DNA of 64,000 nt from Streptomyces sp. NBC_01216 (GTDB lineage: Bacteria > Actinomycetota > Actinomycetes > Streptomycetales > Streptomycetaceae): positions 1,116,001 to 1,180,000 of the forward strand of contig NZ_CP108677.1 in the NCBI RefSeq assembly GCF_035994945.1, in the 5' to 3' direction. Made by a program: the position numbers and the translations under genes. The notes beneath the pieces were generated by a model that had not been told where the DNA came from, did no database searches, and saw only the letters and a program-made list of their open reading frames with translations. Shown here one piece after another: positions 12,115-30,727 of this stretch. The first letter of the stretch is position 1. Every line of letters starts with the position of its first letter.

Positions 12115-12180
12115 GCGGACACGGGATCCGTGATCATTCAGGTGTCTAAGCCAAGTGATCAAGAAGGTTCCCGTGTCCGC
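12115..12180 (+). promoter_or_regulatory. Inverted repeat around the ISAs1 transposase start
   Basis: A 12-bp arm GCGGACACGGGA at 12115-12126 is perfectly complementary to 12169-12180. The GTG start at 12155 lies in the loop and the first codons in the right arm. Transcripts coming in from outside the element would include both arms and could fold over the start region, as seen for the protective hairpins of IS10 and IS50. A promoter inside the loop would avoid the left arm. Confidence 0.4.
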
Positions 12181-13394: not shown

Positions 13395-14273
13395 CTCCGC
13401 ACCACCTGCCAGTGCTGCACCCAAGGGCTGGACATCGAACGGAAGCAGTGCTGTGCGGTCGGCGAGTGCTGCCAGAAGCAGCTGTCCGCTTCGACCGTGG
13501 CCTACGTGCACTCGGTGCTCAAGTCGGCACTGGAACACGCCGTCCGCGAAGACGAGCTGCCGCGCAACGTCGCCCGCAACGTCAAGACCACCACGCACCA
13601 GCCCAGGCGCTTCCGTCCGCTCACAGCGGCAGAGGCCCGTCAGTTCCTCGACGCGGCCCGCGCCGATCGGCTCCACGCGCTGTACGAACTCGCCCTCCGC
13701 ACCGGACTCCGCAAAGGCGAACTCCTGGGCCTCCACTGGGACGACCTCGACCTCAGCACCGGAACGGCCAGCATCCGCCGCTCACTCCAGCGCACCCGCA
13801 CCGGCGGCATCACCCATCTCCCCACCAAGACCCGGGCGTCCGAACGCCGCATCGCACTCCCGACCGAATGCCTCCACTCCCTCAAGGAGCACAAACAGCA
13901 GCAGGACAAGGAGCGCGGGACAGCAGGGCCAGCCTGGCAGGACAGCGGCCTCGTCTTCACCACCCCTACCGGCCGGCCTCTCGACCCGGCCAACCTCACC
14001 CGCCACTTCCGCAGCTTCCTCAACCGAGCCGGACTCCGCCGCATCCGCTTCCACGACCTCCGCCACTCGACCGCCACCCTGCTCCTGGAACAAGGCGTCG
14101 ACCTCGCCGTCATCAAGGAACTCCTCGGCCACGCCCACATCGGCGTCACCGCCGGCGTCTACGCCCACGTCCGACTCCGCCTCCAACGCCAAGCCATCGA
14201 CACCCTCAGCAACGCGCTCAGCCCCGCCGGCAACGACCCCGACAACCCACCCGCCACAGCCGTCGTCCGCTGA
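13395..14273 (+). pseudogene. Tyrosine integrase remnant, N-terminal third missing but catalytic Tyr retained
   Basis: In-frame with a stop at 14271-14273, this 292-codon piece is nearly identical to the C-terminal three quarters of the AICE integrase at 21787-22974. It starts at LRTTCQCCTQGLD, equivalent to about residue 130 of that protein. It retains the catalytic RTGLRKGE, HDLRHSTATLLL and GVTAGVYAHV (Tyr codon 14160-14162). The N-terminal arm-binding and core-binding parts are gone, replaced by the IS pile. It is followed by a 22-bp repeat and a hairpin, exactly as the AICE integrase is. This is the end of an older sister element. Confidence 0.85.
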
Positions 14274-14274
14274 C

Positions 14275-14296
14275 GTTGCCGTCACCGTTGCCGTCA
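14275..14296. repeat. Att-like repeat A (diverged copy after the integrase remnant)
   Basis: Two GTTGCCGTC units three bases apart plus a final A, 2 bp after the remnant int stop. It matches repeats B (15424) and C (22976) at 20 of 22 positions; only the 3-base spacer differs (ACC here, GGC in B and C). All three copies are in the same orientation. Confidence 0.7.
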
Positions 14297-14450: not shown

Positions 14451-14972
14451 TCACCAAAGGCCTTCCTGGATGGATTCATCCTCATGCGCAGCTCGTCTAG
14501 CCCTCTGTGGCCCTTGCTTTTGACCTTCGGCGCCTGGAGCGGAGAGGGGAGCCTTTGCCGCACTTTCTCTGTCAAGCACTGCTTTCAGCCTTCGGAGCAT
14601 TGCAAGCCATTCAGTGCCTTCCTCCTCCACGCTCCAGTCGTCCCGCAAGTCATTGCTTGTGACGAGTAGGCGAGAAATCGCTTCGAGCGCCAGGGGTACC
14701 AGCTCTTTCGGAATCTGCGGAATCTCACCATTCGGCCCCCACGTCGCAGATTGAAATTCATCGCCACCCTCAACCCCTCGGACTGTCAACGCAGCGGCAG
14801 CGATTGCCAGCTCCGCTCTTCCGCCATCGATATGCGGGCTGCCGTCGCCCGCCACCGAGGCAAGGGCAGCTCGGATCGCCTGAATCCGCCTAGACAGCGG
14901 AGTGGCATCCAAATCGCCAGCAAAGTCCGCGGCGCCATCGTTATCGAATGGCCCGTATCCCCATTTCCCCAT
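14451..14972 (-). CDS. DUF4259-type protein, probable immunity protein for the orphan toxin tip
   Basis: A 173-residue acidic, soluble protein. The first residues MGKWGYGPFDNDGAADFAGD match the signature of DUF4259, a family often found beside polymorphic toxins. It begins 6 bases after the orphan tip stop codon, the usual toxin-immunity spacing, so it probably neutralises that nuclease. The C-terminal 35 residues are low-complexity and charged. Base composition is visibly lower in GC than the flanking integrase remnant. The immunity role is inferred from position. Confidence 0.6.
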   Translation of the reverse strand: MGKWGYGPFDNDGAADFAGDLDATPLSRRIQAIRAALASVAGDGSPHIDGGRAELAIAAAALTVRGVEGGDEFQSATWGPNGEIPQIPKELVPLALEAISRLLVTSNDLRDDWSVEEEGTEWLAMLRRLKAVLDRESAAKAPLSAPGAEGQKQGPQRARRAAHEDESIQEGLW

Positions 14973-14978
14973 ATCGCC

Positions 14979-15320
14979 CTACTCGAACGGGAGCTCAGGC
15001 TGAGTCGCCTGGCGCTTGTTGTAGAGGTTTCGACCAAACCCCTCAATGCCACTACTGAGCTTAAAGCCCATTTTTTCGAACTGAACCTTCATGATGTGCT
15101 CTCGGATTCTGAGAGCGTTGTCATCTCCGCACACATGGATGCAAATGACAGGCCCATCCTTGTCTCGCCTGCCCAAGTCTGCGTGCCTGTTCAGTCGAAC
15201 GTTAAAGTTGTTGGTCTTGCCGATATAAACGTGACCAGGCTTCGACTTGTCGTCGAATATGTAGACGCCTTGATTCTTGTTGCAATTGTGGACCAGGACC
15301 GGCGTGGCCCCCGCCAGCAC
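14979..15320 (-). CDS. Orphan Rhs toxin tip: end of HINT domain plus GIY-YIG-type nuclease
   Basis: A 113-residue reading frame from the GTG at 15320. It opens with LAGATPVLVHNCN, the end of the HINT domain of the Rhs gene at 23755-30669. The remainder looks like a GIY-YIG (URI-type) nuclease: GVYIFDDKSKPGHVYIGKT carries the GIY and YIG halves, NVRLNRHADL the Arg and His, and ALRIREHIMK the Glu. In the frame upstream, HTYYV is preceded within nine codons by a stop (TGA), so there is no signal, no Rhs barrel and probably no translation start of its own. It is best read as a silent spare tip awaiting recombination into the live rhs gene. Confidence 0.72.
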   Translation of the reverse strand: MLAGATPVLVHNCNKNQGVYIFDDKSKPGHVYIGKTNNFNVRLNRHADLGRRDKDGPVICIHVCGDDNALRIREHIMKVQFEKMGFKLSSGIEGFGRNLYNKRQATQPELPFE

Positions 15321-15332
15321 ATAGTACGTGTG
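15277..15332 (-). repeat. HINT-tail homology box of the spare toxin tip
   Basis: 56 bases that match 24125-24180 of the rhs gene at 53 positions, encoding the last residues of the HINT domain (HTYYVLAGATPVLVHNCN) on the minus strand. Homology stops abruptly on both sides. This is the length of shared sequence expected for toxin-tip exchange by homologous recombination. Confidence 0.75.
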
Positions 15333-15423
15333 CTCGCCGGGCGGGCGTCACCTGCATTTTCGCTGGTCAGCGAATTCCGGCCTGTCCGTGGGTATGCATG
15401 GAAGTGCCGTGCTGTGCGCCTCT

Positions 15424-15445
15424 GTTGCCGTCGGCGTTGCCGTCA
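15424..15445. repeat. Candidate attL (repeat B) of the AICE
   Basis: Two GTTGCCGTC units separated by GGC and followed by A; identical over 22 bp to the copy just after int (22976-22997). Homology does not extend left (the flank here is GCGCCTCT, while the right copy follows the int stop), as expected for a recombination core. It could alternatively be an integrase arm-binding site. Confidence 0.55.
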
Positions 15446-16000
15446 GACGGCTACGCACATGAGGGCGGTGGAGTGGGCTTTGGCCGGTGTCCTGCCCGGG
15501 TTGGGGTCGGGCATGGTCAGGGGGCCGTACGCTGGCCCGGCAACTCGGGCAGGCTTTGGACCTGCCCGGAATTTGAACGAGTGGCCCCCTGGCCATGCCC
15601 GACGCGGGCCCCGGCCCGGGGAGGTGGGTAAAGCCCACGGAGCCGACCGGCCCCACCCCCGGGCCTACGCCCCGGCCAACCCCCCGCCGTCGCTTCACCG
15701 TCGGCCTGGCGCTCGCCGTGCTGGCGCGTCCGGCTTTCTCCGCGCTTCCGTTCGTCCGCTGTGCTGTCTTTGCGCGGCCTGGTCGCTGGCCGGCCCGCGG
15801 TGGCGGAGCCGAGAGCGGGCCGGGTGGGCGGCCGTGCCGCGCGCGACCCGCGTCAGCGGGTCGCCTTGAAGACGTAGAGAAAGTTTGGACGCATCCCGCT
15901 TCGGGGTACGCCGTGGTCGGTTGCCGAGCGTCCGGCTGGCTGCTGACCTGGGGCGATGGTCTGCGGGTTGTGGGTCCTGTTCAGGCTGGCGGTGGTGGTT
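15446..16000. other. Non-coding left end of the AICE
   Basis: No reading frame here has a recognisable protein signature; the short open frames are Pro/Arg/Gly-rich shadows. The segment is marked by the large nested palindrome at 15506-15603 and by several GC-rich dyads around 15606-15650. Such a gene-free end next to att is a plausible place for a replication or transfer site. Confidence 0.5.
15506..15603. repeat. Nested palindrome, candidate origin or transfer site
   Basis: Outer arms 15506-15526 and 15583-15603 match as inverted repeats at 20 of 21 positions. Inside them, CGGGCAGG at 15546-15553 pairs with CCTGCCCG at 15561-15568 around a 7-base loop. The whole would fold into a long stem with an internal stem-loop. 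It has no flanking gene end that a terminator would serve. Confidence 0.5.
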
Positions 16001-16231
16001 CTACTCGGCTCGGGTGACCTTGGCGTGGTCGGTGAAGACGCGTCTGAAGAGGTCGTGGCCGGTGCGTCCGGTGTGGCGGAGTGCCCAGTCCTGTGCGGCT
16101 TCTTGCCCGTCGTGGGGGCCGGATTCGGCTCCGCATCCAGCGGTGACGCAGAACGCCTCGTAGGTGATGCCGCCTTCGGGTGCGTGACGAATGGTGTGGG
16201 GGATGTGCCGGTAGACGGTGCGGGGGCTCAC
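16001..16231 (-). CDS. DUF7848-type small protein
   Basis: A 76-residue protein from the GTG at 16231, reading VSPRTVYRHIPHTIRHAPEG and later AFCVTAGCGAESGPHDGQEA, AQDWALRHTGRTGHDLFRRV. This pattern, with a Cys pair and the WALRHTG block, is the small Streptomyces family found beside mobile-element regulators. Function is unknown; the Cys/His spacing could bind zinc. The start overlaps the stop of the upstream small gene by 4 bp (GTGA), so the two are translationally coupled. The longer frame to 16438 was rejected because its N-terminal part is the other gene read out of frame. Confidence 0.6.
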   Translation of the reverse strand: MSPRTVYRHIPHTIRHAPEGGITYEAFCVTAGCGAESGPHDGQEAAQDWALRHTGRTGHDLFRRVFTDHAKVTRAE

Positions 16232-16425
16232 TGGTGGCCCTCCGGGTGGCGTCGCATGTGGACGTTGCAGTCGCTGACGGTGGTCATGTCTCCGACCACG
16301 CGGGCCCGGTCGCGTACGTTGGCCAGCTCCGCGCACCCCGCACAGCCCTCGACGGGTACCGGCTCCAGCTTTAGGCGCAAGGGGAGTTCGACCGGCTGGG
16401 TGGAGTACCTGGTCGGCTCCGTCAC
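16228..16425 (-). CDS. Small cysteine-containing protein of unknown function
   Basis: A 65-residue protein if started at the GTG at 16425 (TEPTRYSTQPVELPL); an ATG at 16452 would add nine residues. It has the spaced cysteines GCAGCAELANVRDRA and SDCNVHMRRHPEGH with several His, suggestive of a small metal-binding protein. It is paired with the DUF7848-type gene through a 4-bp overlap and is divergent from the GntR gene at 16582. I do not recognise a function. Confidence 0.5.
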   Translation of the reverse strand: MTEPTRYSTQPVELPLRLKLEPVPVEGCAGCAELANVRDRARVVGDMTTVSDCNVHMRRHPEGHQ

Positions 16426-16464
16426 TGCACATCGCCACCTCTCGAACGTCACATGGCCGACCTC

Positions 16465-16540
16465 TTGACAGGTCGGTGCTCTAGTTCAGTATTCGAGTGG
16501 CCGAAGCACTCCCGCTACGGTTCGCAGTGCACTAGTGTGC
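16465..16540 (+). promoter_or_regulatory. Divergent promoter/operator region of the AICE regulator
   Basis: A consensus -35 TTGACA sits at 16465-16470 with AGTATT at 16488-16493, 17 bases later, as a weak -10. A palindromic core CACTAGTG (16530-16537) within GTGCACTAGTGTGC lies 42 bp before the GntR start, where a self-regulating repressor would bind. The site could serve both this gene and the divergent small-gene pair. Confidence 0.4.
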
Positions 16541-16581
16541 CCTCACTGACATCACGTCAACTCAACGGAGGGGCACGCCTT

Positions 16582-17304
16582 ATGCCCAGTCCCAAGACGT
16601 TCACGAAGATCGCGGATCACTTCCGGGAGCGAATCCTGTCGGGAGAGCTTGAGCCGGGCGCCAAGCTGCCGACGAACCGGGAGATCGCCGGCCAGTGGCA
16701 GGCTGCGGCCGCCACGGTCTCCCGCGCCTTGCAGGCTCTCCAGGTGGAGAACTTCATCCGCACCACCCCCAGGGGTACCTACGTCGCCGATGACCCGCGT
16801 TGGACGCTGTCGGCGCGGGACCGGCTGGCCCGGGTCCAGCGGGTGAAGTCGTTCCTGGCCGAGGGCGAGACGAGCCGGGTGACGGCCGCCGAGCTGATCA
16901 TCCCACCGCTGTACGTGGCGGAGATCTTCGACCTGGAGGCCGGGGACCAAGTGGTGCGGCGCGAGTGGCTGGCCGGGCGGGGCAAGACCCGGACCGTGTT
17001 CGCCGTGACCTGGTACCCGGCCCCGTTCGCCGCCCTCGTGCCGGACCTGCTGAACACCGCCCCGGGCCGCAATCACGGACTGTCCGCCCGAGTACTGGAA
17101 GCCACCGGGCGCACGATCACCCACGCCCGCGACGACATGCACGCCCGCTCCGCCGACGCCCGCGAGGCGAGCGCCTTGGGCCTGCCGGTCGGCTCCCCGA
17201 TCCTGGCCGGTGCCCACCGCTGGTCGGACGCGGAAGGGATCATCGAGTACGGGGAGTGGTGTCTGCCGCCCCGGTTCACCATCGGCTACGAGTACCAGCC
17301 CTGA
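16582..17304 (+). CDS. GntR-family regulator with UTRA domain
   Basis: A 240-residue protein from the ATG at 16582 (MPSPKTFTKIADHFRERILS), preceded by GGAGGGG. Residues 5-70 form the winged HTH (LEPGAKLPTNREIAGQWQ, then AATVSRALQALQVENFI). Residues about 90-235 match the UTRA ligand-binding fold of HutC-like regulators (VVRREWLAGRGKTRTVFAVT, then GEWCLPPRFTIGYEY). In pSAM2 the GntR-family KorSA represses the genes that trigger excision and transfer; a comparable silencing role is likely here. The longer frame from 16453 starts inside the promoter region. Confidence 0.8.
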   Translation: MPSPKTFTKIADHFRERILSGELEPGAKLPTNREIAGQWQAAAATVSRALQALQVENFIRTTPRGTYVADDPRWTLSARDRLARVQRVKSFLAEGETSRVTAAELIIPPLYVAEIFDLEAGDQVVRREWLAGRGKTRTVFAVTWYPAPFAALVPDLLNTAPGRNHGLSARVLEATGRTITHARDDMHARSADAREASALGLPVGSPILAGAHRWSDAEGIIEYGEWCLPPRFTIGYEYQP

Positions 17305-17318
17305 CCGATCCACGCGAA

Positions 17319-17355
17319 GCGTCCCCGAATGCCAGCCTGCGGCCTTCGGGGACGC
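17319..17355. terminator. Terminator between convergent GntR genes
   Basis: An 11-bp stem, GCGTCCCCGAA at 17319-17329 pairing with 17345-17355, around a 15-base loop. It lies 14 bp after one stop and 19 bp before the other, so it can serve both convergent genes. Confidence 0.7.
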
Positions 17356-17374
17356 CGTCGTTCACGTATCTGCC

Positions 17375-18250
17375 TCAGTTAGCGCCGCGGCCTTCGAGGC
17401 GTTCGACACGCTCCTCAAGCTCCTCGATCCGCTCCAGGGCTCGTTCCAGCTTGTAGGCCAGATCAGCCACTCCGGCCACCGCCGGGAACTCCTTCTGCTG
17501 GGCAGTCGGCCCTTCGTCCGGCTCGTCCACCGGCTGCACCGCTACCGGTACCTCCGTACCGAACTCGCCTCCCACGACGACATACGCCATCGACCCGTTG
17601 CGCTGGTGGGCCTTCTTCATCCTGCCCTCCAGGGTGAGGAAGGTGAGGGCCTGGTCGGCGGATTCCGGGTCGCCGCCGATCGTGTCGACCACGTCGTCCA
17701 CGGTGACCGTGGCGCCCCTGGCGAGTGAGCCATCTCTGATCTTGTGGACCAGGCGGCCATGAGTGAGCTGGGTGGCGAAGCCGTGGTCGTCCCAGTCGCG
17801 TACGTAGACCTCGTCGCCGGGCAGTTCGCCGGGGTAGCGCAGGAGGAAATTGCCGGCCAGCAGGGCGATGGCGTTGGTGACCACGTTGAGCGGCACCGCG
17901 TAGTGCTCCGCCAGGACCTCGCGCGCGGGCAGCCTGGCCCCGGGTGCCAGGCCGCCGGAGTAGATCTGCTGGGTGAGATCGCCTGCGACCTTCTCGAAGG
18001 CGTCCTCGAAGTCGGCCGAGCGCGTGACGAATGTGCCGCGCCCCTGGCGGGCGATGACCCAGCCCTCGTTCCTGAGCAGCCGGATCGCCTTCTGCACGGT
18101 CAGGCTCGATGCCTTGTAGGTCTGCATGAGCTGGCTCTGGGTCGGCAGGAGCTGGCCGGGCCGTAGTTCGCCGTCCCGGATCTGCTGCCGCAGGTCGTCC
18201 GCGATGCGTTCGAACGTCAAGCGCGCTTCGTCAGCAGCAGCCATGCCCAT
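17375..18250 (-). CDS. GntR-type regulator with three winged-helix-like repeats and a coiled coil
   Basis: A 291-residue protein. Residues about 10-76 are a standard GntR winged HTH (IADDLRQQIRDGELRPGQLL). A second, similar unit follows at about 86-150 (VAGDLTQQIYSGGLAPGARL), and a third degenerate one at about 160-212 (HGRLVHKIRDGSLARGATVT). The C-terminal 30 residues (LERALERIEELEERVERLEG) are a clear coiled coil, probably for oligomerisation. No small-molecule domain is seen, so DNA itself or a partner protein may be the input. It is divergent from the SCO3933-type/Tra genes across a gap with GGATGGA repeats. Confidence 0.72.
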   Translation of the reverse strand: MGMAAADEARLTFERIADDLRQQIRDGELRPGQLLPTQSQLMQTYKASSLTVQKAIRLLRNEGWVIARQGRGTFVTRSADFEDAFEKVAGDLTQQIYSGGLAPGARLPAREVLAEHYAVPLNVVTNAIALLAGNFLLRYPGELPGDEVYVRDWDDHGFATQLTHGRLVHKIRDGSLARGATVTVDDVVDTIGGDPESADQALTFLTLEGRMKKAHQRNGSMAYVVVGGEFGTEVPVAVQPVDEPDEGPTAQQKEFPAVAGVADLAYKLERALERIEELEERVERLEGRGAN

Positions 18251-18348
18251 CCCCGGTCCGAGTCCGATTCCATCCGCCGCGGGCCGCCCCGCTGCCTGTC
18301 GTGTTTCACCAGCTCAGCGGCCTCACGGGGTCAGCGTAGCCGCCGTAT

Positions 18349-18402
18349 GGATGGACCACCGCACGAACGGATGGAACTCAATGGGAATGGACTTTGGATG
18401 GA
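18349..18402. repeat. GGATGGA direct repeats upstream of the transfer genes
   Basis: Exact GGATGGA at 18349-18355, 18369-18375 and 18396-18402, with a near copy GGAATGGA at 18384-18391. All lie between the divergent multi-domain regulator and the SCO3933-type gene, 70-120 bp before the latter. Candidate operators for the GntR-type protein. Confidence 0.4.
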
Positions 18403-18471
18403 ATGAAGATAGGGTTGCGGCACGCGATCACCCACACGGGTGACTCGCACCCCTCTACCTGGAGGTTTGCC

Positions 18472-18807
18472 GTGAAGACCATGCCCATCGACCAGACCCC
18501 GGCCCTGGTGATCCTGGCCTCCGAGTCCCGCCAGCGGTTCAAGGACCGCGACGGCCAGCAGCCCGCGATCGACCGGGCCACCGGCGCCCACCTGCACCTG
18601 GTGGACGTGATGTTCGCCTTCAACGGCCGCGCCGAAGTGATCACCGTGAACGTCCCCGAGCCGGGTCTCGGCAAGGGCCTGAAGGTCGGCATGCCCGTCG
18701 TCTTCACCGGCCTGGTCGCCACGGCCTGGGAGAACGAGATCAACGGCAAGGACCGGCACGGCATCTCCCTGCGCGCCGACGCCGTCACCGCCAAGGCAGG
18801 CGCCTGA
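18472..18807 (+). CDS. SCO3933-family regulatory protein
   Basis: A 111-residue protein starting at the GTG at 18472, which has GGAGG six bases upstream. It reads VKTMPIDQTPALVILASESR and later ENEINGKDRHGISLRADAVT. This fits the SCO3933 family, small proteins found immediately before the FtsK-like gene in many actinobacterial integrative elements. It looks like a small beta-rich fold with no obvious HTH. The stop overlaps the next start by one base (TGATG). Its exact role is not known; position suggests control or assistance of transfer. Confidence 0.65.
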   Translation: MKTMPIDQTPALVILASESRQRFKDRDGQQPAIDRATGAHLHLVDVMFAFNGRAEVITVNVPEPGLGKGLKVGMPVVFTGLVATAWENEINGKDRHGISLRADAVTAKAGA

Positions 18808-20129
18808 TGATCGGCAACCCCCTCGGGCTCGCGTTCCTCGCCGTGGTCGGCCTCGGCCTGCTCGGACTGCTGGGCTGGGCCTCGTTCTGCTTCGCCCGCT
18901 GGTACCGGGCCGACGCCGAGACCCGGATCAGCCTGCGGCAGGCGCGGCGGCTGCGGTGGGGCTGGAAGCGGCTCGCCCCGATGCTCGGCCTGGCAGTCAA
19001 GGACGCCACTCCCACCGTGCTCCAGCAGTTCGGGCCGCAGGAGCAACAGCCGCAGGTGCTGGTGCCGCGTTTGCGCACCCGTGCCGACGCCTTCGGCGTC
19101 ACCGTCACCGCCGATGCCCTGCCGCAGGTCGGGCTGAGCGCCTGGCAGGACGCCAGCGAGGGCCTGTGCGACGCCTGGGGAATGCGCCGCATCCGGATCA
19201 GCCAGCCCAAGCCCGGAGTGATCGTCGCGCGTGGGTTCCGGCGTGAGCCGCTGGAGGCGGTGATCCGCTCACCGCTGCTCGGTCCTGATGGCTCCCCGGT
19301 GTGCCGACCGGGTCAGTTCGTCTCCACCGATGACGTGCTGCTCGGCTGGGACGAGGACGGCACCCCTATCGTGCTCAACCTCGCATACTCCGCGCACGCC
19401 CTGGTCGCCGGCCTCACCCGCTCCGGCAAGTCGATCACCGTCAACACCCTGCTCGCCTACGCCTCGCTCATGCGGGATGTGCGTCTGATCGTGATCGACC
19501 CCAACCTCGGAGCTGTCGCGCCCTGGTGGCGTACCGCCTACAAGGTCTCCGACGCCATCCACCCCGAGGAGCCGACCGAGATCCTGCGCTGGGTACGCGA
19601 GGAGATGCAGCGCCGTGAGCGGCTGTTCTGGTCCGGTCGCACTGACCGCATCACCGACTTCAGCCCCGAGCTGCCGCTGCTGCTCGTGGTGATCGACGAG
19701 GTCGCGAACTACACCCGGCACCCGGACCGCAAGGCCCGCGAACGCTTCGAGGCCGAGCTGCTCGCCATCGCCAGCCAGGGCGCCAAGTTCGGCATCCGGC
19801 TGTGGCTGCTCACCCAGAAACCCTCCGCCGACGTGCTCACCACCGCCGTGCGCACCAACCTGTCCGCCCGGATCTGCCACCGCGTCGACACCGTCGAGGA
19901 CTTCCTGCACCTCTTCCCCGACGGCCGGGAACTGGACATCACCGCCGCCGACCGCACCATGCCCCAGGGCGTGTCCATCGCCTCCGTCGGCGACATGCGC
20001 ACCCCCGTCCGGCTGCGCTCGGTCTACCTGCCCACCGAAGCCTGCTGGCAGATCAACGACCTCATGTGCGCCGAAGGGTTCAAGGTCCGCGACCTGCCCG
20101 ACCACATCGACCTGGACAAGGCCGCGTGA
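18807..20129 (+). CDS. FtsK/SpoIIIE-like DNA translocase (TraB/TraSA type)
   Basis: A 440-residue ATPase. One or two membrane segments lie at the N-terminus (NPLGLAFLAVVGLGLLGLLG). Walker A is AGLTRSGKSITV (about residues 199-210) and Walker B LLLVVIDEVANY (about residue 294), followed by the FtsK-type sensor region WLLTQKPSADVLTTAVRTN. A single protein of this kind moves double-stranded AICE DNA from donor to recipient mycelium and is the only transfer protein such elements need. Length and layout fit the family. It is translationally coupled to the SCO3933-type gene. Confidence 0.85.
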   Translation: MIGNPLGLAFLAVVGLGLLGLLGWASFCFARWYRADAETRISLRQARRLRWGWKRLAPMLGLAVKDATPTVLQQFGPQEQQPQVLVPRLRTRADAFGVTVTADALPQVGLSAWQDASEGLCDAWGMRRIRISQPKPGVIVARGFRREPLEAVIRSPLLGPDGSPVCRPGQFVSTDDVLLGWDEDGTPIVLNLAYSAHALVAGLTRSGKSITVNTLLAYASLMRDVRLIVIDPNLGAVAPWWRTAYKVSDAIHPEEPTEILRWVREEMQRRERLFWSGRTDRITDFSPELPLLLVVIDEVANYTRHPDRKARERFEAELLAIASQGAKFGIRLWLLTQKPSADVLTTAVRTNLSARICHRVDTVEDFLHLFPDGRELDITAADRTMPQGVSIASVGDMRTPVRLRSVYLPTEACWQINDLMCAEGFKVRDLPDHIDLDKAA

Positions 20130-20224
20130 CCGCCGCCTCCTGGTCCTGCTTCGCAGTGATCCCCGGCAAGGGCGTGTAGTCGCCAAACCCTCGCCCCTGC
20201 CGGGGCCTCCCTCCCATCCCTCCA

Positions 20225-20242
20225 CGGCACACGCGTGTGCCG
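20225..20242. promoter_or_regulatory. 18-bp palindrome before the replication gene
   Basis: Perfect palindrome CGGCACACGCGTGTGCCG ending 23 bp before the rep start. It is too symmetrical and loop-less for a typical terminator and lacks a gene stop just before it. A repressor site or part of a leader hairpin is possible. Confidence 0.35.
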
Positions 20243-20265
20243 CAGCGCAGAGAGGTCCCGCCAGC

Positions 20266-21612
20266 ATGCCACCGCACGACCCCACCACCACAATCCCCCG
20301 CCCCGAACCCGCCACGGCCGCGCTGCCCACATTCACCGGGTACCGGAACCTGCTCGGCCTGGTACGGCAACTGTCCTCCCTTGGTGGCTGCGCCCAGCCG
20401 ATCCGGCTCGAAGGCCACCGCACCGAGATCGACGCCCTCACCGGCGAGATCCTGCGCGAAGTGAAGTCCGAGGAACTGCCCGCCGGGCATCTCCTGGTCC
20501 GCTGCGGCAACCGCCGCACCACCCGCTGCCCCTCCTGCGCAGAGCTCTACCGCCAGGACACGTACCACCTCATCGCCGCCGGCCTGCGCGGCGGCAAGAA
20601 CATCCCCGAACAGGTCGCCACCCATCCCCGTGTCTTCGCCACCCTCACCGCACCGTCATACGGACCCGTGCACGGGCGACGCGTGGGCGGCTCCGCCCGC
20701 TGCCGTTGCGGACGCACCCACACCAAGGGCGACCCGCTCCTCGGCACCGCGCTCGACCCCGAACGCTACGACTACACCGGCGCCGTGCTGTGGAACGCCC
20801 ATGCCCCGTCCCTGTGGGCCCGCTTCATGCTCCACCTGCGTCGCACCATCGCCGCCGCAGCTGGTGTCCCTCAGCGGCTGCTCTCCAAGGTCGTCCGGGT
20901 CTCGTACGCCAAGGTCGCCGAGTACCAGCAGCGCGGACTGATTCACTTCCACGCCGTGATCCGCCTCGACGGCCCCGCAGGCCCGTACACCCCGCCGCCC
21001 GCCTGGGCCACACCCGACCTGCTGGCCGATGCCATTCGGATCTCGGCCACCCGCGCCCACATCGACGGGCCGAAGATCAACGGCCGCTCCCGCGCCTTCG
21101 TCTTCGGCGAGCAGATCGACACCAGGATCATCCGGTCCACCGCCTTCCAGGGCGGGACCACGATCACCGAGGGCAAGGTCGCCGGATACGTCGCCAAGTA
21201 CGCCACCAAGGGCACCGAAGCCGCGACCGGCACCCTCGACCACCGGCTGAAGAGGATCACCGACCTCTGGTTCGAGTCCGTGCCCGAGCACGCCGCCCGC
21301 ATGATCCGCACCGCCTGGACCCTCGGCGCCCGCGACGACCTCAAGCACCTGAACCTGCGCAAGTGGGCCCACATGCTCGGCTTCCGCGGCCACTTCTCCA
21401 CCAAGACCCGCGCCTACTCCACCACCCTCGGCACCCTCCGCGACGCCCGAGCCGCCTGGCACCGCCGCCACACCCCTCCGCCCTCCCCGACCACCCTCGT
21501 CCTCGCCCACTGGGCCTACGACGGCACCGGCCTCACCCCCGACCTCGAACGCCTCGCCACCCTCATCAACGGCGGCCCGACACGAGCAGAGGCGGTGACA
21601 GCCGATGCGTGA
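20266..21612 (+). CDS. repSA: RepSA-type replication initiator (rolling-circle)
   Basis: A 448-residue protein. Near residues 85-100 is a zinc-ribbon-like Cys cluster (RCGNRRTTRCPSCAELY), with more Cys around 145 (ARCRCGRTH). The HUH metal-binding motif is LIHFHAVIRLD (His 227 and His 229) and the candidate nicking tyrosines are in AGYVAKYATKG (Tyr 308 and Tyr 312). These are hallmarks of the pSAM2 RepSA initiators that nick the origin and start rolling-circle replication after excision. An RBS (AGAGAGG) precedes the ATG. The next gene (xis) starts inside its last codons. Confidence 0.82.
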   Translation: MPPHDPTTTIPRPEPATAALPTFTGYRNLLGLVRQLSSLGGCAQPIRLEGHRTEIDALTGEILREVKSEELPAGHLLVRCGNRRTTRCPSCAELYRQDTYHLIAAGLRGGKNIPEQVATHPRVFATLTAPSYGPVHGRRVGGSARCRCGRTHTKGDPLLGTALDPERYDYTGAVLWNAHAPSLWARFMLHLRRTIAAAAGVPQRLLSKVVRVSYAKVAEYQQRGLIHFHAVIRLDGPAGPYTPPPAWATPDLLADAIRISATRAHIDGPKINGRSRAFVFGEQIDTRIIRSTAFQGGTTITEGKVAGYVAKYATKGTEAATGTLDHRLKRITDLWFESVPEHAARMIRTAWTLGARDDLKHLNLRKWAHMLGFRGHFSTKTRAYSTTLGTLRDARAAWHRRHTPPPSPTTLVLAHWAYDGTGLTPDLERLATLINGGPTRAEAVTADA

Positions 21613-21790
21613 CGACGAACTCCTCACCGTCCCCGAGGCCATGGCCCGCCTCAAGATCGGCCGCTCCGCCCTCTACGACCTCCTGCGCACCCGCCGCCTG
21701 GCCTCGCTGACCATCGGCCGTGCCCGCCGCATCCCCGCCCACGCCCTCGCTGACTACGTCCAGCGCCACCTGGAAGAGGCCGCCCGATGA
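21605..21790 (+). CDS. xis: Excisionase (Xis), HTH_17 type
   Basis: A 61-residue protein that overlaps rep by 8 bp and int by 4 bp. It is a single MerR-like winged helix: LLTVPEAMARLKIGRSALYD, then RRLASLTIGRARRIPAHALA. Xis proteins of this class bind att DNA and steer the integrase to excision. The three overlapping genes rep-xis-int form the replication/integration module of AICEs. The sequence shows no defect. Confidence 0.8.
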   Translation: MRDDELLTVPEAMARLKIGRSALYDLLRTRRLASLTIGRARRIPAHALADYVQRHLEEAAR

Positions 21791-22974
21791 CCGCCCCCAA
21801 GCGCAAGAAGGCCCGCGCCAATGGCGAAGGCACGATCTACCAGCGCCAGGACGGCCGCTGGGAAGCCGCCGGCTACGTCCTCGCCGCCGACGGCACCCGC
21901 AAACGCGTCCGCGTCTACGGCACCACCCGCAAGCACGCGGCCGACAAGCTCGCCGAGAAGATCGCCGACAGCAACCGCGGGCTGCCGGTCGCCACTGCCG
22001 ACAGCACGCTCGGCGACTACCTGACGTACTGGCTCAGCAGTGTCGCCGTTCACCGGCTCCGCGAGAACACTCACACCCGCTATGCCGCCTGCGTCCGCCT
22101 CCACCTCATCCCCGGCCTTGGCACCAAGAAAGTCGCGCGGCTCACCGCCAAGGACGTCCGCACCTTCCTCGACCGGCTCCGCACCACCTGCCAGTGCTGC
22201 ACCCAGGGGCTGGACACCGAACGGCAGAAGTGCTGTGCGGTCGGCGAGTGCTGCCAGAAACGGCTGTCCACTCTGACCGTGACCTACGTGCACTCGGTGC
22301 TCAAGTCGGCACTGGAACACGCCGTTCGCGAGGACGAGCTGCCCCGCAACATCGCCCGCAACGTCAAGACCACCACGCACCAGCCCAGGCGCTTCCGGCC
22401 CCTCACAGCGGTCGAGGCCCGCCAGTTCCTCGACGCGGCCCGCGCCGACCGGCTCCACGCGCTGTACGAACTCGCCCTCCGCACCGGCCTCCGCAAAGGC
22501 GAACTCCTCGGCCTCCACTGGGAAGACCTCGACCTCACCACCGGAACGGCCAGCATCCGGCGCTCACTACAGCGCACCCGCACCGGCGGCCTCACCCACC
22601 TGCCCACCAAGACCCGGGCGTCCGAGCGCCGCATCGCCCTCCCCACGGAATGCCTCCACTCCCTCAAGGAGCACCAGGAACGACAGGACGAGGAACACGA
22701 AGCGGCAGGACCAGCCTGGCAAGACAGCGGCCTCGTCTTCACTACGCCCACCGGACGGCCTCTCGACCCGGCCAACCTCACCCGCCGCTTCCGCAGCTTC
22801 CTCGACCGGGCCGGACTCCGCCGCATCCGCTTCCACGACCTCCGCCACTCGACCGCCACCCTGCTCCTGGAGCAGGGAGTCGACCTCGTCGTGATCAAGG
22901 AACTCCTCGGCCACGCCCTCGGCCCCACCGACGACGACCCCGACGATCCGCCCGCCGCAGCCGTCGTCCGCTGA
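21787..22974 (+). CDS. int: Tyrosine integrase lacking the catalytic-Tyr segment
   Basis: A 395-residue phage-type integrase. It has an N-terminal arm-binding domain (GEGTIYQRQDGRWEAAGYV), a SAM-like core-binding domain with a Cys-rich insertion (TCQCCTQGLD, KCCAVGECCQ) and the catalytic domain with RTGLRKGELLG (Arg about 236) and HDLRH (350-354). After KELLGHA (about 377) it jumps straight to LGPTDDDPDD. The sister copy has 27 more residues there, including GVYAHV with the nucleophilic Tyr. The missing DNA corresponds to 81 bases (14136-14216 of the remnant), so the frame is kept but strand cleavage should be impossible. Confidence 0.85.
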   Translation: MTAPKRKKARANGEGTIYQRQDGRWEAAGYVLAADGTRKRVRVYGTTRKHAADKLAEKIADSNRGLPVATADSTLGDYLTYWLSSVAVHRLRENTHTRYAACVRLHLIPGLGTKKVARLTAKDVRTFLDRLRTTCQCCTQGLDTERQKCCAVGECCQKRLSTLTVTYVHSVLKSALEHAVREDELPRNIARNVKTTTHQPRRFRPLTAVEARQFLDAARADRLHALYELALRTGLRKGELLGLHWEDLDLTTGTASIRRSLQRTRTGGLTHLPTKTRASERRIALPTECLHSLKEHQERQDEEHEAAGPAWQDSGLVFTTPTGRPLDPANLTRRFRSFLDRAGLRRIRFHDLRHSTATLLLEQGVDLVVIKELLGHALGPTDDDPDDPPAAAVVR

Positions 22975-22975
22975 C

Positions 22976-22997
22976 GTTGCCGTCGGCGTTGCCGTCA
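22976..22997. repeat. Candidate attR (repeat C) of the AICE
   Basis: Identical over 22 bp to repeat B and placed one base after the int stop, the usual attP side in AICEs. To the right, the flank continues into a terminator and the Rhs immunity gene. Confidence 0.55.
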
Positions 22998-23001
22998 AGA
23001 C

Positions 23002-23045
23002 GCCAAGAGGCCGCCATCGGGATTAGCCAATGGCGGCCTCTTGGC
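23002..23045. terminator. Terminator between int and the Rhs immunity gene
   Basis: A 16-bp perfect stem (23002-23017 with 23030-23045) and a 12-base loop. It lies between two convergent genes, 28 bases past the int stop and 68 bases past the immunity-gene stop, and can act in both directions. Confidence 0.75.
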
Positions 23046-23112
23046 TTGCCGCATGCTTCCTACCCAAGGAATCTCTATTAATCCAGATCCAAGGGCCGTC
23101 ACCCGGAGAGGG

Positions 23113-23754
23113 CTAGCGCATCAGGAACGAAATTCGCGAGACCACGAATTCTCCGTAGGAAAATTCGTGACCCAGCTCTACGAATCTCGCATACAAATCA
23201 TGGTCGATCTCACAAGAATACTCCATGAGGAATCTCAGGAGGACTCTAAAGGCGAGTTCTGGGCAGATATCCGAGGTGCACACCCTCAGCGCCGATACGG
23301 CGCCCGGGATACTCACCATTGGATTGTTTGCGATCGCCTCATCCAGAGCAGGCTCAAGCTCGTCGATTTCCGCGACAACCCTGCCCGCGAAGGCGCCGTA
23401 CGCACTTTCACTGACTTCGAGGTTTGCGTGTACGCCGGCTTGAGTGAGGCCCCTTTCGCAGATATCTGCAACTTCCCGGAACCAACCCAATCCACTGACC
23501 GAATCGCCGTTGAGGCGATGATAGGAGCCAGTTGCACATTCCCAGAGGGTGGCAACAGTGTCAGCGTCACCGCTGGCTGCCAGCCTGAGTGCATCCTCGG
23601 CGAGCGCTAGCACGAACGGATCTGACGTTTGGGCGACGTAGCTCATGACCACATCGCGCGCGCTCCCCGATAGCCTCCAGTCTTGATGGAACATAGAGGC
23701 TAGATGCGTGATACCGAAGTCATCCTCGGTAAATCTGATCCCCACAGAGAACAC
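23113..23754 (-). CDS. Probable immunity protein for the Rhs RNase tip
   Basis: A 213-residue acidic, helix-rich protein starting at the GTG at 23754, with no spacer after the rhs stop (TAG then GTG). It reads VFSVGIRFTEDDFGITHLAS and later DAGVAEIDELEP-like helical segments such as AGRVVAEIDELEPALDEA. I do not recognise the family, but an acidic small protein directly after an Rhs toxin is the expected cognate inhibitor. GC content is visibly lower than in the AICE, typical of exchanged tip/immunity cassettes. The immunity function rests on position. Confidence 0.6.
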   Translation of the reverse strand: MFSVGIRFTEDDFGITHLASMFHQDWRLSGSARDVVMSYVAQTSDPFVLALAEDALRLAASGDADTVATLWECATGSYHRLNGDSVSGLGWFREVADICERGLTQAGVHANLEVSESAYGAFAGRVVAEIDELEPALDEAIANNPMVSIPGAVSALRVCTSDICPELAFRVLLRFLMEYSCEIDHDLYARFVELGHEFSYGEFVVSRISFLMR

Positions 23755-26700
23755 CTATCTCGGGTATGCGGTCGACACGTAATATCCCCCCGGGTGCCCA
23801 GCCGCACGCTGAAGGATTATCGTGTACGCGTTACTTGTGGGGGTAATACTTCCGCTCGCGTCAGCCCTCACCCCAATTGGGTTATTGGCGCCGAATCTCC
23901 CCTTGATTTCAAGCGGCCCTACGCCACCACCTCGAAGCCAGTTACCGATGCGCTTCTGATTTGACGCGATACCGTAGTCGACGACTTGCTGGGCAGTCTG
24001 GAGATCAGTAAAGCGAGACTTCACTCCCGAGGTTTGCGCCATCTGAATGAGTCGCTGATCACTTACATTCACATGCTCGTCGAGAACGTGCGCAGCAGGG
24101 AATCGAGCGTCATCAGCAGTCAGATTGTTGCAGTTGTGCACCAGGACCGGAGTGGCCCCCGCCAGCACATAGTACGTGTGGATGTTGTTGATCGTGAGGT
24201 CGTGGGTGCGTTGACGTTTGTTGTAGTGGTTGACCTGCTCGATGGTGGCGGTGTCGCCGGTCGGGGTGTGCAGGGTCATGCCGGGTTTGAGGTTGCCGGC
24301 GTCGGTCCATGTGTGTGTCGACGGCACCCAGAAGGGGTGGGTTGTCGTGGAGTTGAGTGTGGAGGTATTGCCAGTGTTGTTCTCGATGGTGAGGTTGACG
24401 AAGTGTTTGTCGCCTTCGGTGACGATGGTGCCGACGACTTCACGCGTCGTGGTCTGACCGGTTTCTGGGTCGGTGACCGCTACCTTGTCGCCGAGTTCGA
24501 CTTCCTCGATGTTTTTTGTGGTTCCGTCGTCCAGGAGGACTTTGGTTCCTGGCAGGAAGCTGTGCGGGGTCGGGCAGGTCCCCTTACCTGCTAGGGATTT
24601 TACCTTCGCTCGGGCGGCGGCAAGTGCATCCTTGGCCTTGCCCAGCTTTTCTGAGTATTTGAAGAAGTCCTTGATTCCGTCGATCAGTTTTTCGACATGA
24701 CCGGCGACTGTTTTGATGAGGTTGGCAGCTTTGGCCCATCTCAGGCCGTATTTGGCGAGGAGTTTTCCTGCCAGGCCGCCTGCGAAGCTTCCTGCAACGT
24801 TGAGTGCGGTTTCGCCGCATGCGCCGATGTCGCCACTGGAGAAGCAGTCCAGGGCCGCGTCGATCCCCAGTTCCTGCTTGATGATGTTGACGAGGGCCTG
24901 GACGGCCTTCTTGATCTTTTTCTTCGAGTTATTGAGGTTGGTGGTCGCTTTCTTTTCGTCGTCTTTGGCCTTGTCGACCGCGACTGATTCTACGGGGGCA
25001 CAGAACATGCCACAGGAGGGGGAGCCGCAGTAGCTTCCGCCGTCCGCGACTCCGAGTGCGCAGGGTGCCAGGCCAGTGGGGTCTGACAGTGTGACGGGGC
25101 TGTTGTTGGCGTACGCGTAGCCGTTGATCTGCTGGGGTTGGGTGTAGTCGATCAGCGAGTCGACGGATATGAATTTTCCGAGCCCGGGGTCGTATTCGCG
25201 TGCCCCGATGTGGGTGAGTCCGGTCTGCAGGTCGAGTGCGCCTCCGACGAAGCCCTTCTCGCCCGGGAACGTGCCCGTGGTCTGGCCGCGGGAGACGCCG
25301 TAGGGGTCGAAGCGGCGCTGGGAGACCGCGCCCGTTGCCGGGTTGATCGCAAGGCTGCTGGTGCCTTGGTGGTCGGACCCGAGGAAGGAGAGGGTGCTGT
25401 TGTTTTCGCGGACCGCGATCGTCTGTCCGGCGAAGGTGTAATAACGGGTCGCCTCGACCGTGGCGCCCTGAGCCTTGGGGAGCTTCAGCTCCATGCCGGG
25501 CAGGTAGATGGTGGTGGCGGTGGCGTCACGGCGTACGACGCGTTCGCCGGAGGCGTCGTACAGGTACGTCGTCTCCTTGCCGTCGGATTCTGTGGTCTTC
25601 GCCAGATGGCCTTCGGCGTTCCAGTCGAGTGTCTGGGTGCTACCGCTGATGGTGCGGGTGCGGGTGTTTCCGTTGTTGTCGTAGGTGTAAAGGGACTGGC
25701 GATCGCCGGTGGGGGTGTTCTCGACCAGCTTGGTGACGGCGTGCGGGCCGGCGTTCTGGCCGTAGGTGTACGTCCGCGTGGTGTTCTTGGCCACGTCGAG
25801 ACCGGTGTCGTGGACGATGTCCTGGGTGCGGTTGCCGATCGCGTCTGTGGTGTAGGACTTCCAGTACGCGGCGGGGCCACCCAGGGGGCCGGTGCCTGGG
25901 GCCGGGCCGCAGGCTGCGGGAGAGGTGCCGTTCTCGACGCCACCGACTGTTCCGAAGCCGGTGGCATCGGCCGGTGTGGCCGCGGGAGTCCATGCCTCGG
26001 ACAGTCGCTGCATGGAGTTGTAGGCGAAGCACTGGACGTCTGGTGAGGATCCCGCGAGGTCGGAGATCGACAGGACGTTGCCGGCCTGGTCGTAGGAGTA
26101 CTGAGCCTCCTTTGCCGGGGCGTTCACCCCTTCGATGTCGATCCGCGAGCTCGTCAGCCGATCGGTCCCCTTCTCGTACTGGAAAGCCTGCTGGACCTTC
26201 TGTCCGCCACCGGCGGACAACTTGAGCCCCTTGAGCAAGCTCGTCTCGGTGTAGAGCGTTTCTGTGACGTTGATGGATGAGGTGCCCGTCATGGCAACGG
26301 GGCGTTGCAGTTCGTCGTAGGTGTAGGCGAACGTCTCGGTGGGGAGACCGCCTGCTGCCGGCATGCCGCTGCTGGCGACGGTTCCGTCCGAGCTGTAGCC
26401 GGTCGTGAAGGAGTAGGTGCCCTTCAGCAGTCCTTCGGACGCCGGCACGATGTAGTCGACCCGCATCGGCCGGTACAGAGCGTCACGTGACTGGACGACG
26501 CTGCCGAAGTACGAGGTGGGGCCGGTCCAGCGGATCGAGGCGTATGCCTCGCCCAGGGCGCCCGCGCGGTCGTATCGCGTCTCGGTCAGCTTCGTACCGG
26601 TGCCTGCGTCGCCGGCCCAGGTGATGGTGGGGCGACCCAGTGCGTCATAGCTGGTGGAGGTCTTTTCCTCGCTGGCGTTCAGACTCCAGGTGGGACGGTC

Positions 26701-29700
26701 CATGCCGTCGTAGTGGGATTCCGTCACACCCGCGTCAGGGTCGTTGCTCTTGGTCTTGCGACCGAGTTGGTCGTACTCGTAGCTCCAGACGTTGTCCTTG
26801 GCGTCGGTGACCGTCTTGAGCTGGCCGCGGGGCGTGTAGGTGTACTTCGTGGAGTCGTACTGAACGCCCGGACCCTCCGGGGCGGACGTGGCGGTGCGGT
26901 GGTGCCGAATCTCACTCACGCGCCCTTGGGCGTCGGTGATCGTCGTAGTCGGGACACCACCGACCGGTGGGTCGACCCTCTTGCGCTCGCCCTCGTAGGT
27001 GATGGCGGTGCGCCACTGCTCCCTGCCGCCGGTGAGGGCGATCTCGGCGGTGGTGCGGCCCAGGCCGTCGTACTCGAATCTGGTCTGGGCGCCGACCTGA
27101 CCGCCGGCCACGATCAGCAGCTCATCCGAAGCGACGCCCGCTGCGTTGTAAGTGGCGTTGGTCCTTCTCGGCTTGCCCGTGCCGTCGTAGAAGACGTCAC
27201 CGACCATCCGGGTGCCTGCTGGGCCTTGCGTCTGGAGCTGCCGCGGGCGCAGGAGGCTGTCGTAGTGCTGATACTCCGCGCCGTAGGCGCCGTCCTTTTG
27301 AATCTTCTCGGTCTTGACGACGGTGGTCTTGTCGCGACGGACGTTGTACGAGTATTTGATACTCGGCGTCATCGTCTTCGTCCGGTCCGCCAGCCACACT
27401 GAGGTGAGCCTGCCGAGGCCGTCGTAGGCGAGGTCGGTGCGCTTGCCGTTCGGGTCGGTCTGCCCCGAAGAGACTCCCCAGGCCGGCGCGTAGTCGGTCG
27501 TCGTAATGTGGCCCAGAAGGTTGGTGTGCTTGGTCTGGGAGATCAGGCCGTTGACATCCGTGTAGGCGATGATCGTGGCGACCTGTTCGGCCAACGGCTT
27601 CTGCAGCTGTTCTGCGTTCTTCTGCAGGGTGGGACGACCGTAGGCGTCGTACTCGGTGGTGCCGGTCACCTGGTAAGTGGCCGTCGTCCCGTCATGGCCC
27701 GCCAGCCGCTCGGTCTTGACTGCGTTGCCATACCCGTCATAGGTGGTGCGCTCGTCCGCGAGAACCTGGGTCTTGCGATCGGGGGACGCGGCACACCTCA
27801 CCGTCACGGCCTCGCTGCGCGCGGGCAGTTCGTAGAGGTTCTTCGCGGGAGTGTCCGCGTACCACAGTTGAGTGCAGGTGTCGTCGTCAGCCCGCGACAC
27901 GTCACCCTGATCGTCGGTCTTGACCAGTCGGCCGCCCGGCACGGTGGTGTCGTATGTCGAGGTCGACTTGGTCTCCTGCCATGTGCCGTCATGCAGAAGG
28001 CTATAGCCCCGTGAGGCACCGGGCTTGACCAGGGTGGCGTGCGAGGTACCCCAGGTCCTGGTCTGCGTGGCCGTTTCATGCTTCCACGGCTCACTGATCG
28101 ACTTGGAGACTACCTTCCCGCTCGTGGCGTGGTCGTAGGTCTTCGACTCGATCTGGAAGCCGGTGAACTCCTTGGACCCGGTGTACTCGACGCCAGTGGA
28201 GTCCTTGACCTTCTCACTACGCGTGCCGCCGCCCGGAACCGTGTCACCGTCCAGGCCCTGCAGGTACGTGTACTCGATGCGTGTGGCAGTCGTCTGGCCG
28301 CTTCCGCCGGTTACGACGACCTTGCCGTAACCCTGCCACTGGCCCCAGGTCAGATACTTCGGGTCGGTGATGCCGTCGGGCTCGGCATGCCGCCAGCCGG
28401 CAGCACCCTGGTAGTCGTAGTGCGTGACCAGATCCTCGCCGCCACCGGTGCGGTCAGTCTCGACGATGTCCTGGACGACATACTTGTGGAACCAGTCCGT
28501 CTTCGGGGTGATGCTGCCCGGAGGAGACCAGACGACGGGGAAGCAGCGCTTCGTGGAGGTGCCCGGTGCCGGCAGGACCGTGGCCGTGCATTCCTGCGGA
28601 GCATAGGTGATGTTGAGTTGCGCCCCGGTCTCGCTGACCACGGTGTCCAGACGCAGCCGCTTGAACGGGTCGGTGTTGTCGACATCGCTGTCGACGCGGT
28701 TCATCAGGTGGCTGCCGGCCAGCTCGAGCGAGGGCATCTTGTCGCTGCCGCCGGCCTTGCCCTCGTGATCGATCTTTGCCAGCCAGAGGGTCTTCGTGTC
28801 GTCGCCGTTGTCGGTGAACAGGTGGGTGAACGTCCAGGCGTCGACGTCGGCGTATTCTCCCGCGACAGAGCTCTTGCTCATCTGGGTCGTGATGCCGACC
28901 AGTCTCTTGGTCGTCCAGAACGTCTGCGTGCTCTGGCTTGCCGTGCACTTGGTGTTCGCCGCGCAGTTGCGGTCGACCGGAGTGTCGGGCCAGTACGCGG
29001 CATTGCCCGTCGTGAACTTCGACGCAGCGCAGTCGAAGGCAGTCACCGGCAGGCAACGCTCAGCAGTGGTGAAGGTGACGCGCGCCGGAGCCTTGGTGCT
29101 GTAGACGGTGTTGTCGCGCTGACCGTAGTCGATTCGCTTGAGGTAGCCGCCGCGGTGGTACGCCGTGCCGTTGACGTCCGTCTTGCCGTTGAGCGCGTAG
29201 TAGTTGGTTTCCGCGCCGTAGAAGTACGACATGGCGTTGCCGCGGATGTCCTTGACATAGTCAAGATTCCACCGCCATGCCTGCTTGCAGTGTGCGCTGG
29301 CGAAGGTGGCGTTGTAGCAAGGCTCGCCGGAGTCGTCGCCGAAGACCGGCGCCGTCCACGCCGAGGACGTCTCTTCCTTGCCCGTGGTCCATCCGGGAAG
29401 ACGGTTCAGGCCGAAGTAGTACTCGGTACCGTCGGTCGTCGTGATCTTCCAATGCTCACCGTCGTTGTCACCGTTTCCGGTCACGTAGTTGGCGTTGGTG
29501 AGCTGCTCGATCTTCGCCCCGGACTCCGACTCGAAGTGCCACTTCCCACTCGTGTCGTCCTTGATGAGCGAGCTGGCTGCGCCATTGAGCATCACTGTCG
29601 CGTTGTCGAACGCCCAGCACTGCTCACCGGAGCTGCTGTGCCCGTCCTCAGAGCACGGCTTGTACGAGCGTTCGACATAGCCGGGCTCGTAACTGAAGCC

Positions 29701-30669: not shown

Positions 30670-30727
30670 GAAGAAACTCCACGGAGTCGGTGGATCTGGG
30701 AAATCTCGTGACAAGCTCAACAAGGGA

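Follow-up and report, generated by a model that had tools for sequence, protein, structure and literature searches.

Very probable exchange of Rhs toxin tips by a clade of actinomycete integrative and conjugative elements, with a Streptomyces copy probably locked by loss of its integrase tyrosine

In Streptomyces sp. NBC_01216, the 64,000-nucleotide stretch analysed here (the window; contig NZ_CP108677.1, positions 1,116,001 to 1,180,000) holds two closely related tyrosine integrase genes behind the gene of an Rhs polymorphic toxin; one belongs to an actinomycete integrative and conjugative element (AICE) and lacks its catalytic tyrosine, and the other is a remnant that keeps this residue. The question that the locus raises is what such elements do behind a toxin gene, and what the loss means for them. 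The first-pass annotation of this DNA described the loss and missed both the target in the HINT codons and the replacement of toxin tips. Read from their surroundings, both integrases appear to belong to elements that insert in HINT codons of Rhs genes, each lying by its own tip and putative immunity gene, so that the pair would record two successive tip replacements. We consider it highly probable that a clade of AICEs with its attachment site in these codons swaps the tips of Rhs toxins, and that the window copy is locked by the loss of the tyrosine. The features concerned are the following (L numbers denote fetched loci used for comparison):

23755 to 30723, minus strand: Rhs polymorphic toxin gene with HINT domain and RNase-A-type tip, start codon set mechanically (PT-HINT, RNAse_A_bac and RHS_repeat above cut-off)
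23113 to 23754, minus strand: putative immunity gene of the RNase-A tip (CdiI_2, 24.9 bits, under the cut-off of 26.7)
24166 to 24180, minus strand: attachment core CACACGTACTATGTG on the Rhs side (attR), HINT codons HTYYV (from the repeat and the L180/L184 and L013 comparisons)
15318 to 15332, minus strand: attachment core CACACGTACTATGTG on the far side (attL), at the start of the orphan tip (same comparisons)
15333 to 24180, plus strand: whole element from one core to the other (8,848 bp), with its toxin tip and putative immunity gene (edge comparisons; analogy with the L180/L184 pair)
21787 to 22974, plus strand: AICE integrase, 395 amino acids, without the 27-residue segment that bears the catalytic tyrosine (sequence, homologue alignment, profile match)
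22917 to 22918, plus strand: junction at which 81 bp are absent (comparison with the remnant and L013)
14979 to 15320, minus strand: orphan GIY-YIG toxin tip with HINT end, putatively the displaced former tip (PF01541, 28 bits, cut-off 22.6)
14451 to 14972, minus strand: putative immunity gene of the orphan tip (DUF4259)
13395 to 14273, plus strand: integrase remnant of the older element, tyrosine present, N-terminal part absent (sequence, relatives)
12155 to 13384, plus strand: ISAs1-family transposase gene, cut edge of the remnant (NF033564)
15424 to 15445, plus strand: 22-nt repeat built from two GTTGCCGTC units and set 92 bp inwards of the left core (repeat search)
22976 to 22997, plus strand: second copy of the 22-nt repeat, directly after the integrase gene (repeat search)
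14275 to 14296, plus strand: third copy of the 22-nt repeat, after the integrase remnant (repeat search)

The C-terminal part of the AICE integrase reads KELLGHA and then LGPTDDDPDDPPAAAVVR, and that of the remnant (292 amino acids) KELLGHA, then HIGVTAGVYAHVRLRLQRQAIDTLSNA and then LSPAGNDPDNPPATAVVR; the two are 91% identical over residues 1-247 of the remnant. It had been claimed that 81 bases of the remnant (14136-14216, 27 codons) are missing at 22917/22918 with the frame of the AICE copy kept, and re-comparison returned the same bases; the copies are also, as described, in direct orientation, both on the plus strand as direct repeats that are 93% alike over their first 300 nt. That the lost segment holds the catalytic tyrosine is borne out by relatives: in a homologue search that scored 7,996 candidates, this residue is kept in all 120 homologues listed of 2,229 matched (116 by pattern, 4 by eye), and solved tyrosine recombinases have it at the aligned position (three alignments). 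The listed relatives are 411-423 residues long, with 422 (= 395 + 27) in 87 of 120 and 395 in none. Among 63 near-full-length open reading frames of the family from the fetched loci (the window's own included, and not all independent), 60 have the tyrosine and two, in L032 and L039, stop before its position; the window integrase is the only one with a normal tail and no tyrosine.

Other parts of the catalytic domain are present in the AICE copy (PF00589 at residues 206-377), including TGLRKGE, HDLRH and LGHA, found by eye, which we take to be the Arg, HxxR and further His motifs of this domain. The match to the Pfam Phage_integrase model stops at position 157 of 172 in this copy and at 169 in the remnant. 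Because the lost segment holds the catalytic tyrosine, which an active tyrosine recombinase requires, the full-length AICE copy should be inactive, as the first-pass annotation had also concluded. It was right too that the tyrosine-bearing copy lacks its N-terminal part, as the remnant aligns only to residues 131-422 of a full-length relative. One copy lacks the tyrosine and the other the N-terminal part, and most integrases cleave in cis; the idea that the two copies, as they now stand, work together was dropped.

What the element is attached to can be read from its edges. A 56-nt repeat (15277-15332, matching 24125-24180) encodes HTYYVLAGATPVLVHN, the end of the HINT domain; at 24180 it lies inside the open Rhs frame with its RNase-A tip, and at 15332 it forms the opening of the orphan GIY-YIG tip. 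The left ends of 17 loci, selected by core-to-22-nt-repeat spacing, are alike from the interior across the 22-nt repeat as far as the core, and similarity drops to chance level about 50 bp beyond it, this last stretch encoding the conserved HINT end; the spacing had first been noted in stubs with the repeat within 400 bp, 13 of 13 of which have it (two being the same place). At the right end, the window was compared with L013, a sister element that shares its RNase-A tip: similarity is 92-100% on the tip side, whereas on the Rhs side it is 50-70% and then at chance. These left-end and right-end breaks indicate an element that runs from core to core, 15333-24180, with the tip included.

The core itself is conserved as DNA. 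In 46 distinct Rhs-fused sites, pooled from the matches listed in a scan that covered 121 genomes from the genus of the window, the codons for T-Y-Y-V were ACG in 43, TAC in 45, TAT in 34 and GTG in 37, against same-frame backgrounds of 25%, 94.5%, 5.5% and 24%, respectively. The HINT-end pattern occurs in 79 of the 121 genomes and a reversed control pattern in 0. CACA and TGTG stand either side of a 7-bp centre, and recombinase cores often have such flanks around a short centre. L183 carries CATACGTACTATGTG as its core on the Rhs side and CACACGTACTATGTG as its left core, and the element-free L186 also starts with CAT, which would place the crossover past the third base of the core. A second kind of left end, seen in many related loci (e.g., L028 at 1734, L033 at 1695, L035 at 1647, L038 at 1695 and L048 at 1666), has an in-frame stop (TAG or TAA) directly before the core, which blocks reading into the orphan tip from upstream; left ends of the kind seen in the window have no such stop.

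An orthologous empty site was looked for in the chromosomes of relatives and given up, as the long Rhs matches were only 64-73% identical, so an empty/occupied pair was sought on plasmids. L180 and L184 are plasmids of two Streptomyces strains, and their orthologous Rhs genes are 94% identical. In L184 the Rhs gene is fused to a tip, X, with immunity protein WP_331720563.1; no integrase of the window's family was found in its 32-kb stretch, and an integrase annotated 7 kb from the core does not match that family. The order in L180 is an Rhs gene with another tip, A, the integrase and AICE genes, and an orphan tip X with the identical WP_331720563.1. The orphan flanks are 99.8% identical over 3,855 bp, ending at the core, the Rhs flanks are 98-99% identical for 500 bp beyond the core, and what lies between them in L180 is unrelated to L184: an insertion of 8.7 kb with the 15-bp core at each end and nothing lost. 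These two plasmids show one locus both empty and occupied.

Tip changes are visible elsewhere too. L181 has the same element and tip A as L180 with a different orphan behind it. In S. goshikiensis, L183 (with the element) and L186, L188 and L189 (without) share 99.2-99.7% identity across 12 kb that takes in Rhs and further sequence up to the core region, past which the tips differ among L183, L186 and L188/L189, the last two being alike. The same tip is found on different Rhs genes whose HINT sides are only 35-79% alike in 12 pairs (14 were listed, with L180/L181 and one Rhs-orphan row excluded). A set of 78 fetched loci is biased toward integrase-bearing ones and not all independent (L018 and L019 overlap). 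L182 and L190 share one element, as do L180 and L181. Two further observations concern stacked tips. The tip-X segment, which runs core to core without an integrase (3,802 bp; L180 2693-6495, L184 8771-12573), can be taken as an older, shrunken insertion; the tip lying behind it in L180 directly follows the element in L181 (at 6495, 94% alike). Within 21 kb of L019 (Streptomyces sp. WAC06614) there are five HINT-end cores together with several pieces of integrase, apparently a stack of successive insertions.

The site also follows the integrase clade. Among 79 loci (4 unscored, 3 with too little flank), it lies 746-1319 bp beyond the integrase end in 46 of the 55 whose integrases are at least 60% identical to relative P0004, and below this identity in 2 of 17, both at 54%. 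Distant relatives sit mostly beside tRNA genes, with one within about 155 bp of the match, on the opposite strand, in 12 of 14 distant loci scanned (L079, L053 and L084 left out), which points to a switch of target; the simplest reading would be that a tRNA-targeting ancestor moved to the toxin gene. No tRNA gene was found in the 64-kb window or just beyond the integrase gene in 11 sibling loci, and a tRNA attachment site for the window element was dropped on these grounds. A pSLS plasmid as a free form was also considered and dropped, the name pSLS being absent among the best 50 of 692 plasmid records.

It could be argued that tips are exchanged by homologous recombination in the HINT end, with the integrase genes riding along by chance. 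Recombination is the usual account of cassette exchange in the text of Zhang et al. (PMC3482391), the HINT end is conserved, and 27 of the 38 Rhs-fused sites sampled have no integrase within 3 kb. However, homologous recombination would explain neither a clean insertion with a core at both ends, as in L180, nor the upkeep of the rare TAT codon, nor a site that tracks one integrase clade, and we regard this account as very unlikely. Slightly less credence still is due to attachment at the 22-nt repeats with the toxin cassettes as mere neighbours. This exact direct repeat does flank the AICE genes, with one copy immediately after the integrase gene as expected of an attP, and relatives also carry it there. 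Against this, the left ends, albeit chosen by spacing, break near the core and none at the repeat, the L180 insert includes the tip, and the middle bases differ between left and right repeats in most loci showing both; attachment at these repeats was dropped on the evidence of the pair and the left ends. The 22-nt repeat is perhaps a candidate arm site of the integrase.

With attachment at the core, the events may be pictured as follows. The integrase would recombine the core CACACGTACTATGTG of the element with the identical core in an Rhs gene. In frame behind its own core the element carries the final stretch of HINT, then a new tip and a putative gene for immunity. On insertion, as the sequences show, the Rhs gene gains the new tip and the old one is left as an orphan at the far end; excision, presumably driven by Xis, would restore the old tip. 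The new HINT end would let HINT release the new toxin, and the immunity gene would protect the recipient. In the window, where Rhs, the RNase-A tip, the element, the GIY-YIG tip and the integrase remnant follow one another, at least two arrivals can be read: an older one that would have brought the GIY-YIG tip and survives as the remnant and its cassette, and a younger one with the RNase-A tip, whose integrase would then have lost the 81 bp and could alone neither excise nor integrate. The older element seems to have been cut by the ISAs1-family insertion sequence, the transposase gene of which ends just before the integrase remnant.

How the loss arose is suggested by relatives, in which the 12 bases that code for LGHA have a near-copy 81 bp further on, read as LGNA, LGHA or similar; in the loci shown (those with at least 9 of 12 the same), 9 to 11 of the bases agree. 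In L013 the two stretches are CTCGGCCACGCC and CTCGGCAACGCC, 81 bp apart, and when aligned with the window this locus splits at the junction into two blocks that overlap by 14 bases (22905-22918). We infer slippage between these near-repeats, which, being 81 bp apart, would give a loss exactly in frame. An error of sequencing or assembly is scarcely credible: there is a single assembly, and a near-identical integrase copy lies 8.8 kb away, but the tail beyond the junction is the AICE copy's own and differs from that of the remnant, the loss sits where relatives carry the near-repeats, the genome is 99.97% complete in 4 contigs, and an in-frame 81-bp loss is improbable as an error. The loss counts as ordinary decay: its form is rare, while decay of integrases at such sites is common. 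Among 40 stretches (one per genome, from 40 of the 121 genomes in listed order with some skipped), integrase matches lie within 3 kb of 13 core sites; 5 are near full length (a single tblastn piece covering at least 400 of 422 residues) and 8 fragmented or split. The exact loss of 27 residues, to which the first-pass annotation drew attention, is confirmed, and the near-repeats and the common decay leave no support for calling it remarkable; exactness as a sign of selection was dropped because the near-repeats suffice.

The element is an AICE by its gene set, which spans 16.4-23.0 kb and, besides the integrase, comprises:

16453 to 17304, plus strand: GntR/UTRA regulator (profile match)
17375 to 18250, minus strand: GntR-type regulator, two matched stretches (profile match)
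18807 to 20129, plus strand: FtsK/SpoIIIE-like translocase (PF01580, 58.4 bits, cut-off 24)
20266 to 21612, plus strand: repSA, replication initiator (PF20199, 494.9 bits; NCBIfam RepSA, 486, under the equivalog cut-off of 700)
21605 to 21790, plus strand: xis, excisionase-like (HTH_17 and TIGR01764 above cut-off)

A single translocase of the FtsK/SpoIIIE type, a RepSA-type initiator, genes for an excisionase and a tyrosine integrase (here without its tyrosine) and direct repeats at both ends, i.e., the 15-bp cores, with which the natural pair agrees, are all present; insertion in a tRNA 3' end, usual for AICEs and not obligatory, is not seen here. The Rhs gene likewise has its RHS repeats, HINT domain and C-terminal toxin domain in a single frame. 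To the left of the older remnant, a NUDIX-like protein (10105-10596) and an IS3-type transposase pair (10666-11756) were recognised by eye; AICEs often carry NUDIX genes, as reported in the text of the survey by Ghinet et al. (PMC3218068).

Whether the window element can still move depends on its integrase supply. No close intact integrase was found in this genome, and the only other long match is about 50% identical, has the tyrosine and lies beside a tRNA-Arg gene. The genome has four cores: two lie in the window, and two further Rhs genes have one each, with integrase fragments only beside them. With no close intact integrase, the Rhs gene is probably locked on its present tip, and tip exchange by this integrase family would have come to a halt in this genome, short of the arrival of a sibling element or recombination of the two copies. 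At L191 (G000:C1:1027658-1029418), two C-terminal integrase pieces lie 1.6 kb apart behind one Rhs gene, each of about the last 60 residues, as if the integrase end nearest the tip were the part that survives. That the element does still move, by the integrase of a sibling element or by recombination between the two integrase genes of the window, is unlikely in our view; the second route would set free a circle that holds a complete integrase along with the older GIY-YIG tip. Both cores are intact and the copies are alike direct repeats, and a published AICE excised despite a truncated integrase (PMC3218068); against this stand the lack of a close intact integrase and the fragments at the other two Rhs cores, and no sign of movement was seen, nor could it have been.

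Several points weigh against tip exchange by a locked element as we describe it. The tip-side core lies 0.7-1.3 kb from the integrase gene, which is unusual for an attP. Nine of the 55 closer integrases show no site by the search used, some having variants such as CACGCG (L027, L030), and 12 of the 46 Rhs-fused sites have TAC instead of TAT. The many sampled Rhs-fused sites that lack a nearby integrase belong here as well; these may be empty sites or sites that lost their integrase. Only one clear empty/occupied pair was found, the putative immunity genes are weak or unnamed profile matches, and no excision product or circle was seen, the mechanism being read from sequence. Finally, immobility is not certain, because the Frankia AICE Faln1739 excised, according to the survey text, with a truncated integrase and no close copy in evidence (PMC3218068).

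Tip change in polymorphic toxins is usually credited to recombination with standalone cassettes. Here the vehicle, the exact DNA site and a before/after pair are visible, which makes the process directly testable. Such exchange would give AICEs an immediately useful cargo, weapon plus immunity, and would account for why, in these genomes, integrase ends and orphan tips accumulate behind Rhs genes; a dead integrase would be one route to making a tip switch permanent. With less assurance, we lean towards a wider view, that a conjugative clade moved its attachment from tRNA genes to HINT codons and became a dedicated, reversible warhead exchanger. Each arrival would re-arm the toxin and bring an immunity gene, each departure would restore the previous tip, stacked arrivals would form a last-in, first-out record, loss of the tyrosine would fix the last choice, and recombination between integrase copies in a stack might allow an element to take the older tip along when it departs.

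In the titles and abstract openings of the open-access papers searched by topic, nothing was found that links AICEs with tip exchange in Rhs or other polymorphic toxins; related systems share parts of it. Prophages at icd of E. coli (e14, phage 21) insert in codons and supply an in-frame replacement end, which keeps the enzyme the same, whereas the end brought by the Rhs element changes the action of the protein. Closest in gene set are the pSAM2-type AICEs, with FtsK-like translocase, RepSA, Xis, tyrosine integrase, att repeats at the ends and known tandem insertion; the survey's text places the vast majority of tyrosine-integrase AICEs in tRNA 3' ends, with the pSLS subfamily as the exception, and neither "rhs" nor "toxin" occurs in its main text (Ghinet et al. 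2011, PMC3218068). The window element shares their genes and end repeats and differs in a site within toxin codons and a toxin tip as cargo. In the effector-immunity arrays of the type VI secretion system of Vibrio cholerae, old cassettes likewise pile up behind the active one, and the abstract names no integrase-borne element (PMC5361080). Prophages of Mycobacterium are likewise mobile carriers of polymorphic toxins, by the abstracts with no insertion into the toxin gene itself (PMC8092301 and others). Zhang et al. (2012, PMC3482391) describe, in the text concerned, Rhs/HINT proteins with C-terminal tips and standalone cassettes exchanged by recombination of unstated mechanism, and XerC/D-like recombinases beside some polyimmunity loci. 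The protein, its tip and the orphan cassettes are common to those systems and to the locus described here, in which, unlike there, a site-specific conjugative element would carry the tip.
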